Origin: Aquimarina sp. MMG016
Lineage (GTDB): Bacteria; Bacteroidota; Bacteroidia; Flavobacteriales; Flavobacteriaceae
Length of the DNA: 64,000 nucleotides
NCBI RefSeq assembly: GCF_018100805.1
Contig: NZ_JAGJEA010000008.1
Coordinates: 124,001-188,000, forward strand
Direction: 5' to 3'
This document shows positions 33,012 to 38,371 of this stretch, in pieces; the stretch's first letter is position 1; every line of letters starts with the position of its first letter. Made by a program: the position numbers and the translations under genes. Below the pieces are notes generated by a model. The model saw nothing but the letters and a program-made list of their open reading frames with translations. It was not told the origin of the DNA and ran no database searches.

Positions 33012-33087
33012 ATTACTGCCTCAACTTAACATATCTAATCTTTTACTTCATTGCTGAAAATCATAGAAGTTTCTAAAAATATATTGA

Positions 33088-33221
33088 AACAAAAAAGAGT
33101 GCCTCCGCACTCTTTTTCTTCACACAAATCATCTTAATTTAGGGGCTTATTCTAAAATTAAAACTCACTTTTTATAAAAACTTTCATCTTGGGGAAAATG
33201 AAAGCGTTAACTCATTATTAC
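33088..33221 (-). ncRNA. Small RNA gene, copy 1 of 3
   Basis: On the minus strand a promoter TTTG (33253-33256) -N19- TATCTTTAC (33225-33233) predicts a start near 33221. The predicted RNA of about 135 bases contains a hairpin at 33181-33204 (arms CTTTCAT/ATGAAAG, loop with GGGG or CCCC) and ends in a terminator hairpin (GAGTGC at 33097-33102 with GCACTC at 33107-33112, loop of four) followed by T6. Compared with copies 2 and 3 the terminator stem has two compensated pair changes. No open reading frame is shared by the three copies. Confidence 0.6.
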
Positions 33222-33300
33222 AGTGTAAAGATACAATCATTTTTCAATCCACCAAACAAATTTGTGTATTTTATCTAAAAAAAATGTTTTTTAACATTAA

Positions 33301-33616
33301 TAAACACTATAAATCGTGTATTTTGTAAGTTTTTTATTACAAAAATATAAACTAAGCAAATATTCAGCTTCGAATTATGAACTTGTCATATATTCGGAAT
33401 TGTAATAATTCGAGCTGTCCCCACTTTAATTTGTTGATTTAAAACCAAATCCATCATCAGAGTTTTTTATGAATTCAAAAAAGAAGTATTTTAGTTTCAT
33501 GATCGAAAGGTGTAAAAGTTTTTAACTTCATAAAATTATAACGACCTTGTCTTCACAGGTAAAACATATGAATAATGATAAATTCATAATTTAAAAAACA
33601 GTACACAAGAAATAAT
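33301..33616. other. AT-rich region upstream of the methyltransferase gene
   Basis: No gene is visible. It contains the inverted repeat TCGAATTAT (33370-33378) / ATAATTCGA (33405-33413), similar in composition to AT-rich intergenic motifs at 39700 and 49660. The promoter of the methyltransferase gene presumably lies here, but I found no convincing box. Confidence 0.4.
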
Positions 33617-34228
33617 ATGAATACAAATCAATCTGAGGAACAACAATACTGGACACAACGATATGATGAAAATCGAACAGGTTGGGATGTAGGTTATGTA
33701 TCAACTCCGCTAAAGGAATATATTGATCAATTAACTGATAAGAATATTAAGATACTGATTCCAGGAGCAGGAAATGCCTATGAAGCAGAATATCTATTCA
33801 AAAAGGGATTCAAAAATGTTTTTGTACTTGATATTTCTGAACAACCACTAAATACACTTTTAGAAAGAGTTCCTGAATTTCCAGAATCACAGTTAATTAT
33901 TGGAGATTTTTTTACTCATACGGGAACATATGACTTGATCATCGAACAAACTTTCTTTTGCTCTTTTACTCCTACGAAAGAAAAACGTTCTAAATATGTA
34001 TCTCAAATTGCAAATCTTTTGAAACTAGAAGGAAAACTTGTCGGTTTATGGTTTGATATTCCATTAACGACTGATACAGAAAAACGTCCTTTTGGAGGCG
34101 ATAAAGAACTGTATTTATCATATTTAAAAAAACATCTGGAGGTTGTTATTTTTGAAAGATGTTATAATTCAATTCCAGAAAGACAAGGAAGTGAACTTTT
34201 CGGGATTTTCAGAAAGAAAATAAAGTAA
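33617..34228 (+). CDS. TPMT-like SAM-dependent methyltransferase
   Basis: A 203-residue class I methyltransferase of the thiopurine methyltransferase-like group. The order of motifs fits: WTQRYDENRTGWDVGYVSTPL (12-32), ILIPGAGNAYEAEYL (46-60, SAM-binding motif I), VFVLDISEQPL (68-78), IIGDFF, DLIIEQTFFCSFTP (105-118), and RPFGGDKEL near 150. Such enzymes methylate thiols, halides or selenium/tellurium compounds; the substrate here is unknown. It is a single gene placed between two copies of the small RNA repeat, whose hairpin at 34275-34301 serves as its terminator. Confidence 0.85.
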   Translation: MNTNQSEEQQYWTQRYDENRTGWDVGYVSTPLKEYIDQLTDKNIKILIPGAGNAYEAEYLFKKGFKNVFVLDISEQPLNTLLERVPEFPESQLIIGDFFTHTGTYDLIIEQTFFCSFTPTKEKRSKYVSQIANLLKLEGKLVGLWFDIPLTTDTEKRPFGGDKELYLSYLKKHLEVVIFERCYNSIPERQGSELFGIFRKKIK

Positions 34229-34271
34229 CTTTGATAGTATCTTTTCTTCTAATAAAATGCAAAGTATTGAA

Positions 34272-34406
34272 AACAAAAAAGAGCGTCTCCACGCTCTTTT
34301 TCTTCACACAAATCATCTTAATTTAGGGGCTTATTCTAAAATTAAAACTCACTTTTTATAAATGCTTTCACCTTGGGGAAAATGAAAGCGCTAACTCATT
34401 AACTCT
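34272..34406 (-). ncRNA. Small RNA gene, copy 2 of 3
   Basis: The promoter is TTTG (34438-34441) -N19- TATCTTTAC (34410-34418) on the minus strand. The internal hairpin is GCTTTCA (34364-34370) with TGAAAGC (34383-34389). The terminator stem is GAGCGT (34281-34286) with ACGCTC (34291-34296), loop CTCC, then T6GTTTT on the minus strand. The block around 34324-34336 is identical in all three copies. It is convergent with the methyltransferase gene, sharing the bidirectional terminator. Confidence 0.6.
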
Positions 34407-34650
34407 GGTGTAAAGATACAACTATTTTCTAATCCACCAAACTTTTTGTGTATTTTATCCAAAAAATATGCTTTTTAACATTTAAAAAATACCAAAACAA
34501 CAAATTTTGTAGTATTTTACTTACATATTTAATATCCTTACCAGAACAGAATACATGGTTTTATTGGATTCATAATTATTCAGAAAAAATAAAAAATCGA
34601 TTTGAAGGAAAAATAAAATTAAAGGGAATAATCAACCCAAAGTATTAGAA

Positions 34651-34785
34651 AACAAAAAAGAGCGTCTCCACGCTCTTTTTCTTCACACAAATCATCTTAA
34701 TTTAGGGGCTTATTCTAAAATTAAAACTCACTTTTTATAAATGTTTTCATCTTGGGGAAAATGAAAACGCTAACTCATTAACTCT
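34651..34785 (-). ncRNA. Small RNA gene, copy 3 of 3
   Basis: The promoter is TTTG (34817-34820) -N19- TATCTTTAC (34789-34797) on the minus strand. The internal hairpin is GTTTTCAT (34743-34750) with ATGAAAAC (34761-34768): the C-G pair of copy 2 is replaced by T-A here, keeping the helix. The terminator hairpin is identical to copy 2 (34660-34665 with 34670-34675). It lies 123 bases past the terminator of the E1 operon. Confidence 0.6.
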
Positions 34786-34921
34786 GGTGTAAAGATACAA
34801 CTATTTTTCAATCCACCAAACTTTTTGTGTATTTTACCCAAAAAAAATGCTTTTTAACTAAACATGTTGAACCAAAAATACATTTTTTGTATTATTTTTC
34901 TTACAAATTTATTATAATTAA

Positions 34922-38241: not shown

Positions 38242-38332
38242 TGGGCGCATCCCGAATCGTACCTCTCGGGATTGGGCTATTCGTTATATCTTTTTTACTG
38301 GTTCTCGCCCTTCGACAAGCTCAGGGTGACAG
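38242..38332. repeat. Two adjacent palindromic intergenic repeats
   Basis: The first repeat has arms ATCCCGA (38249-38255) and TCGGGAT (38266-38272) in a GGGCGC...GGGCT frame. The second (38305-38332) reads CCTTCGACAAGCTCAGG followed by GTGAC, with CCCT/AGGG arms. Both fill the gap between the E2 and aminotransferase genes and match repeat types dispersed in flavobacterial genomes; the second recurs, degenerate, at 8582. Confidence 0.55.
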
Positions 38333-38371
38333 CAGTAAAAAAGGATGCCACTACTATCCCTTGCGCATTTT

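Follow-up and report, generated by a model that had tools for sequence, protein, structure and literature searches.

A putative multicopy small RNA family of Aquimarina and its probable counterparts beside rpoE in other Flavobacteriaceae

Multicopy families of small regulatory RNAs (sRNAs), such as LhrC, Qrr and CcsR, occur in several other phyla, where near-identical genes lie partly in tandem and some of the RNAs carry C-rich unpaired motifs. Small RNAs are little known in the Flavobacteriaceae, a large family of marine and soil bacteria. For the Bacteroidota, PMC11697453, in which LhrC is mentioned, describes FopS of Bacteroides thetaiotaomicron with 14 paralogous sRNA genes. For the Flavobacteriaceae, PMC9723704 reports that deletion of the sRNA Rfp18 of Flavobacterium psychrophilum lowered two metalloprotease mRNAs in stationary phase. 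Here we examine a 64-kb stretch of the genome of Aquimarina sp. MMG016 (contig NZ_JAGJEA010000008.1, positions 124,001-188,000; hereafter the window), in which a preliminary description, made from the letters alone, had pointed to three tandem copies of a putative small RNA gene. Judged by its sequence, this is a real, new multicopy sRNA family that exceeds chance and has no match in Rfam. The explanation that we prefer, to which as a whole we assign a probability of roughly 0.6, is that the three units are genes for one predicted small noncoding RNA of ~130 nt, each with its own promoter and intrinsic terminator.

The three units comprise 211 bases each (33085-33295, 34269-34479, and 34648-34858); compared to copy 2 (34269-34479), which served as the reference, copy 1 is 81% identical without gaps and copy 3 is 97% identical. 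On the minus strand every unit holds a promoter of the form TTTG-N19-TATCTTTAC, followed by ~130 bases predicted to be transcribed, with hairpin 1, hairpin 2, the invariant stretch TTAAGATGATTTGTGTGAAG, and a G+C stem that ends in T6. The spacing between TTTG and TATCTTTAC is exactly 19 nt in all three copies, as the preliminary description had it, and the letters TA--TTT of the -10 box are unchanged in all 74 copies aligned from the genus. By sequence, the promoters are of the primary-sigma type of Bacteroidota. Its remarks on compensatory base changes also hold for the sequence: the terminator stem passes from GAGTGC/GCACTC in copy 1 to GAGCGT/ACGCTC in copies 2 and 3, two compensatory changes that retain all pairs, with T6 after each stem, and the closing pair of hairpin 1 is C-G in copy 2 and T-A in copy 3. 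Each copy, thus, has a predicted promoter of its own and a predicted intrinsic terminator with a covarying stem, two marks of a trans-encoded sRNA gene. A search of the whole window against Rfam 15 (4227 families) gave no gathering-score match at the three units, where the best sub-threshold match had an E-value of 1.8; the sole match was Flavo-1, elsewhere in the window. The features of the units are as follows; the scores of model R1 are those of copies that all belong to its own training set.

33091-33233, minus strand: copy 1, putative sRNA gene from -10 box to end of terminator T-run; predicted RNA ~33221 to 33091; R1 173 bits
34275-34418, minus strand: copy 2, putative sRNA gene from -10 box to T-run; predicted RNA ~34406 to 34275; R1 165 bits
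34654-34797, minus strand: copy 3, putative sRNA gene from -10 box to T-run; predicted RNA ~34785 to 34654; R1 165 bits
33225-33233, minus strand: copy 1, -10 box TATCTTTAC, from sequence
34410-34418, minus strand: copy 2, -10 box TATCTTTAC, from sequence
34789-34797, minus strand: copy 3, -10 box TATCTTTAC, from sequence
33253-33256, minus strand: copy 1, -33 element TTTG, 19 nt from the -10 box
34438-34441, minus strand: copy 2, -33 element TTTG
34817-34820, minus strand: copy 3, -33 element TTTG
33181-33204, minus strand: copy 1, hairpin 1 with UCCCCAA in the loop, from covariation
34365-34388, minus strand: copy 2, hairpin 1
34744-34767, minus strand: copy 3, hairpin 1
33132-33163, minus strand: copy 1, hairpin 2 with the second CCCC loop, pairing from folding energy
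34316-34347, minus strand: copy 2, hairpin 2
34695-34726, minus strand: copy 3, hairpin 2
33118-33137, minus strand: copy 1, invariant stretch TTAAGATGATTTGTGTGAAG, from the 74-copy alignment
34302-34321, minus strand: copy 2, invariant stretch
34681-34700, minus strand: copy 3, invariant stretch
33091-33112, minus strand: copy 1, predicted intrinsic terminator
34275-34296, minus strand: copy 2, predicted intrinsic terminator
34654-34675, minus strand: copy 3, predicted intrinsic terminator
33265-33295, minus strand: copy 1, direct-repeat pair just upstream of the -33 element
34449-34479, minus strand: copy 2, direct repeats
34828-34858, minus strand: copy 3, direct repeats
33325-33340, minus strand: copy 1, operator-like upstream palindrome GTAR-N8-YTAC
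34509-34524, minus strand: copy 2, upstream palindrome
34889-34904, minus strand: copy 3, upstream palindrome with one half-site degenerate

The structure was assessed on an alignment (A1) of 74 distinct copies out of 77 gathered by plain similarity search (L030:1788-1945, L035:2594-2724, and L036:2990-3136 were left out). In a structure of 34 pairs, 99.4% of the cells are paired, versus 97.2% after shuffling, and changes on both sides of a pair occur in seven pairs and 71 cells, versus shuffled means of 3.3 and 22.7; control structures slid by 1-3 columns gave 1-5 pairs and 2-27 cells. These double changes are confined to hairpin 1 and the terminator, plus one cell at a pair that lies within the hairpin 2 loop. 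None falls in helix 2 proper; its pairing comes from folding energy, and since it hardly varies, covariation is no proof of it. The earlier statement that selection has kept structure, not sequence, is only half right, because from hairpin 2 through to the terminator (the 3' half) selection, as read from the alignment, keeps the sequence itself as well: the statement applies to hairpin 1 and the terminator, whereas there is next to no variation in helix 2 or in the unpaired stretch that follows. In the invariant stretch 19 of the 20 positions are identical in all 74 copies, the remaining one in at least 90%. Between copies of different loci (250 random pairs) the mean identity is 0.93 in the RNA core, a figure inflated by the choice of loci through a core 24-mer, 0.71 in the promoter, and 0.55-0.59 in the spacers.

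A rival reading is that the units encode a very small protein (MICVK...), and an ATG does indeed occur at the same position in all 74 copies. The preliminary description had seen no shared open frame; the frame that opens at this common start does not close inside the transcript. The frame is stopless up to the T-run in 71 of the 74 copies and so crosses the terminator hairpin, and its first five codons are fixed even at third positions, which is why we do not read it as a gene. Its first 12 bases, moreover, occur in none of 69 regions of other genera that lie divergent from the sigma-factor gene rpoE (see below). A protein product seems, therefore, scarcely credible.

Within the genus the family is nearly universal. 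The genome of Aquimarina sp. MMG016 (5.35 Mb) has seven copies, i.e., the three in the window and four in tandem at contig C2:87940-89025, and a DNA similarity search found the family in 50 of the 51 other Aquimarina genomes. With the covariance model, 36 of 37 Aquimarina genomes were positive, including all 33 that are at least 90% complete, with 1-10 matches each (counts that are possibly low, as only part of the candidates was scored). An exact 24-mer was found in 83 stretches of the genome collection; among the 80 titles listed, 78 are Aquimarina and the remaining two are metagenome-assembled genomes named only Flavobacteriaceae or Bacteroidia. Altogether 215 matches fall in 85 loci, mostly spaced 255-430 bases apart, and the copies within each array share one strand, save for one weak extra match. 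In four Aquimarina genomes (G005, G007, G034, and G035) the model finds just one copy, which is rather divergent (E 1e-9 to 1e-12) and may represent a state before amplification. The sequences, thus, support a multicopy RNA family of Aquimarina with its promoter, terminator, and structure, and the preliminary view of a multicopy family other than the known ones is borne out by the genus-wide copies, the conserved promoter and terminator, the covariation, and the lack of an Rfam match.

Clustering of the neighboring genes revealed that the main home of the family lies between an ABC transporter gene (msbA; labeled by Pfam ABC_membrane and ABC_tran) and a gene for an extracytoplasmic function (ECF) sigma factor (rpoE; labeled by Pfam Sigma70_r2 and r4), the latter followed by two small genes without Pfam or NCBIfam match. 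At the main site of Aquimarina sp. MMG016 the transporter is missing and a phosphoglucomutase gene adjoins the array. In all 50 loci (loci, not species) in which both are present, the sRNA lies upstream of rpoE on the opposite strand; 42 of these have the next gene of the operon and represent the main site, and the eight without it largely involve a second, FecR-linked sigma gene. One further locus of the 51 that show rpoE has no upstream copy. The array in the window is a satellite, located beside a dehydrogenase E1 gene at a site common to other Aquimarina; other recurring satellites adjoin a band-7 gene with a sigma/FecR/TonB-receptor operon or a DUF58/DUF456 pair. In seven loci (L057, L082, L085, L089, L109, L117, and L136) satellite copies lie opposite a second sigma gene, which is followed by genes for a FecR-like protein and a TonB-dependent receptor. 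The lysozyme and methyltransferase genes beside the window array, which had been described as convergent with the RNAs and sharing their terminators, seem not to belong to the system, since neither is found among the usual neighbors of the arrays, whose main home lies upstream of rpoE.

A tree was made from 110 of the 199 copies, with the rpoE group reduced by random choice. Copies from one site strongly tend to group together in it (17 changes versus 48.4 after shuffling), although the dehydrogenase group alone needs nine. Window copies 2 and 3 fall inside a supported set of 33 (26 dehydrogenase-site and seven FecR-site copies). Copy 1 falls inside a supported set of 49 in which all other rows except one are from the rpoE site, although the row closest to it by path comes from the dehydrogenase site. 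As the sites cluster, though not cleanly, the copies seem to represent old paralogue lineages with some exchange. The dispersed satellite sites and tandem arrays would also be in line with a mobile repeat, resembling a miniature inverted-repeat transposable element or a repetitive extragenic palindrome, that chances to carry a promoter and a hairpin. However, one place keeps the same order and strand throughout the genus, copies from one site group together in the tree, no transposase was recognized by eye among the 30 neighbor clusters listed (no family search was made), and viral contigs hold no exact 20-mer match, on which ground a phage origin is rejected as well. We consider a mobile repeat highly improbable.

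Upstream of the promoters further elements recur. Direct repeats of the type (C)GATAAAATGCA, which we take to resemble the sites of LytTR regulators, lie just upstream of the -33 box at a distance of ~20-22 bases from each other; by regular expression they were found in 21 of 40 regions with the RNA versus three of 29 without it. Of the Aquimarina copies, 103 of 119 internal ones and 21 of 76 first ones carry a palindrome GTAR-N8-YTAC that precedes the -10 box by ~100 bases (background 219 of 20000 windows; shuffled windows 0 of 195). A direct repeat TTTGTARGAA...TTGTARG occurs in 27 of the 76 first copies and in none of the internal ones. A wider regulon of the palindrome in the genome of Aquimarina sp. 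MMG016 was rejected for want of a signal (19 sites with at most one mismatch versus 26 in the control). The direct-repeat element of the sRNA promoters was also seen upstream of other genes in L040, L174, and L177, in the first case before a gene for what appears by eye to be a small secreted or outer-membrane-type protein; it may mark a shared regulon. Near rpoE a AAAGGTTTA-like stretch was noticed in 61 of 69 regions (L141-L169 and L181-L220), with or without the sRNA, a count made with no background comparison; this stretch may be the -35 part of an ECF-type promoter of the rpoE gene itself.

Operator-like repeats between rpoE and the sRNA promoter are what would be expected if the units were mainly cis elements, i.e., divergent promoters, operators, and bidirectional terminators that insulate rpoE from its neighbor, with the RNA as a by-product. 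The near-symmetrical terminator, whose plus strand is also matched by R1, would likewise end convergent genes. Nevertheless, satellite arrays exist away from rpoE, the RNA core is better conserved than the promoter, and compensatory changes occur in hairpin 1, a part that belongs neither to the promoter nor to the terminator. An array of cis elements is, therefore, quite improbable in our view.

The fixed address beside rpoE was followed into other genera. Among 149 genomes of the family, 133, that of Aquimarina sp. MMG016 included, have an rpoE orthologue, and of the 132 other genera with an rpoE match 69 were covered, namely the 29 best-scoring rpoE loci and 40 further regions, of which 38 were taken in score order and two (G217 and G221) picked by hand. 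On the 29 loci model R1 gave seven matches at E <=0.01, six of them at the rpoE-divergent place, and reading of these regions revealed a unit at that place in 21, its short form measuring 85-98 bases from the -10 box to the T-run. Most of these units have a CCCCAA loop (L161 lacks it) on a stem that differs between genera, followed by a terminator, and most carriers have, by eye, one unit with one C-rich loop. A fixed hairpin rule (CCCCAA or TCCCAAG loop, at least seven pairs, then a T-run) is satisfied at the rpoE-divergent place in 40 of the 69 genera (19 of 29 and 21 of 40), versus a mean of 0.6 of 69 in dinucleotide shuffles (20 rounds) and one of 69 on the other strand of the same place; it misses units visible by eye in L151, L190, and L195. 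Model R2, built from 17 short forms without any Aquimarina sequence (of the 21 units, the long ones L141, L143, and L144 as well as L161 were excluded), matched 22 of the 40 regions outside its training at E <1e-6. In the 64-kb window it ranked the three copies first to third (E 0.031, 0.092, and 0.14), followed by a fourth match at E 1.4. The stems of the other genera (alignment A2) vary by compensatory substitutions: 93.1% of the cells are paired versus 83.6% after shuffling, with 14 double-changed cells versus 3.9. An Rfam search that covered 20 of the 29 loci gave no match.

Several results weigh against this extension beyond Aquimarina. The hairpin rule fails at the rpoE-divergent place in 29 of the 69 genera, and no such hairpin stands beside rpoE in G217, one genome of a genus with many species that is presumably Flavobacterium. 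On positions 500-710 of the same regions and strand the rule is satisfied in six of 68, so that its false rate may reach ~9% in real sequence. The seventh R1 match lies off-site (L149:3032-3134). The R2 E-values of the window copies are weak (0.03-0.14 each), and they are rough, because the palindromic terminator gives reverse-strand matches down to E 4e-4. In A2 the pairs with a double change number four versus 2.3, a value that 24 of the 500 shuffles attain, and further pair types show no excess (six versus 6.8). A search with R2 of 196 genomes of the order found three, Aquimarina sp. MMG016 not among them; it says little and was not used as evidence of absence, because only 21 candidates per genome were scored. 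The false rate of the hairpin rule does not affect the odds, since the synteny, the R2 matches in untrained regions, and the covariation are independent of it. It seems, less firmly than for Aquimarina itself, that many other Flavobacteriaceae genera have a shorter, mostly single RNA gene with a C-rich loop of the same type at the same place. Synteny, loop, and promoter agree, whereas the score of the sequence taken alone is weak. We regard the Aquimarina RNA as probably a member of a family-wide, rpoE-linked sRNA family that has been enlarged, by its second C-rich loop, and amplified.

Some observations in other genera deserve separate mention. Weak similarity matches in 20 of them were rejected as homologues, because they fall mostly in the promoter half of the query (three of the 21 listed places are in the transcript half) and two of six fetched loci lie at a tRNA-Glu gene; one such match (G097) lies just upstream of rpoE. 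In two genera (L212 and L215) two different RNA units are visible by eye in tandem upstream of rpoE, so that tandem duplication occurs also outside Aquimarina. The RNA is longer in L141, L143, and L144, which are possible intermediates; two CCCCAA modules as in Aquimarina were seen by eye in L143 and L144, of which the fixed rule counts two in L144 only.

As to function, we infer that the RNA would act in trans, its CCCC loops, perhaps together with its invariant 3' stretch, pairing with mRNA sites near translation starts that are G-rich or complementary. The mRNAs addressed could be those of envelope or secreted proteins. Pairing would take place without an Hfq or RRM chaperone; a family search detected neither Hfq (PF17209) nor RRM_1 (PF00076) in the genome of Aquimarina sp. 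MMG016, whereas the control search with PF00076 was positive in a Bacteroides genome. Copy number would give dosage, and expression would be set by a DNA-binding regulator that recognizes the sites ahead of the promoter. On a wider scale, we tentatively suggest, as a possibility that may well fail, that the rpoE locus across the Flavobacteriaceae has an RNA arm, a divergent, Hfq-independent CCCCAA-loop sRNA that tunes surface or secreted proteins as a functional counterpart of the enterobacterial sigma-E sRNAs. In this view Aquimarina would have extended it to arrays of as many as ten genes that serve dosage, each copy with a second C-rich loop and an additional operator.

The search for targets does not favor such pairing. 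With long complements of the invariant stretch and with TTGGGG no conserved target sites were found: near-complements of the stretch occur in four of 52 genomes of the genus, equal to the reversed control (four of 52), and in 27 of 30 rpoE loci TTGGGG is absent both from the operon stretch examined and from the bases just before it. A perfect complement of 16 nt at C1:691306-691325 (L051:1497-1520) ends 5 nt before the ATG of a gene named by eye as asparaginase/isoaspartyl-peptidase-like; this candidate was set aside as chance or species-specific, given the equal control and the differing flanks of the other three sites. A cis target in the rpoE operon was likewise rejected, as TTGGGG is present in only three of 30 loci, at three different places.

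The lack of a conserved long complement would suit a decoy, i.e., an RNA whose C-rich loops, two per molecule and present in many copies per cell, bind a protein and titrate it, as CsrB/RsmZ or 6S RNA do, instead of pairing with mRNA. The CCCCAA motif of the loop is kept while the stem beneath it is replaced, and Aquimarina has two C-rich loops per RNA and up to ten copies found per genome. On the other hand, most carriers in other genera have by eye a single unit with a single loop, which would titrate poorly, the loops do not include the invariant 3' stretch, and we know of no protein partner (no search for one was made). A decoy is, therefore, rather unlikely, and we prefer a trans-acting, mRNA-pairing sRNA.

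If the preferred explanation is correct, the Flavobacteriaceae possess an sRNA family that is widely conserved and whose genomic address beside an ECF sigma factor is fixed, and its natural copy-number series (1 to 10) permits the study of dosage. A genome without detectable Hfq or RRM chaperones adds to the interest of the family, and the alignments can be used as a covariance seed for Rfam. Searches of an open-access library, from which most subscription papers are absent, brought up no title or abstract opening that names this RNA.

Among described RNAs, Flavo-1 (Rfam RF01705, 49.7 bits) is encoded in the window itself (38266-38369, minus strand); its function is called unclear in PMC9723704. 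It is likewise a flavobacterial structured RNA, but it lies at another place in the window and does not match the units. Rfp18, with its three stem-loops, is according to PMC9723704 also a Flavobacteriaceae sRNA with a strong predicted structure that is conserved beyond its species; it could be a relative of the Aquimarina RNA, but the genome G217, presumably of Flavobacterium, lacks the hairpin beside rpoE. FopS, according to PMC11697453, shares with the Aquimarina RNA that it is a conserved multicopy sRNA of Bacteroidota with primary-sigma promoters and a terminator hairpin, in a branch of the phylum without classical sRNA chaperones. Peculiar to FopS, in the same source, are a single-stranded 5' seed followed by the terminator hairpin and the association with the RRM protein RbpB. 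The Aquimarina RNA, in contrast, has two C-rich hairpin loops and tandem arrays, and PF00076 finds no protein in Aquimarina sp. MMG016 that could take the part of RbpB, a result that concerns the presence of the protein only. Multicopy sRNA families as a kind are, thus, already known, and the novelty lies in this particular family.

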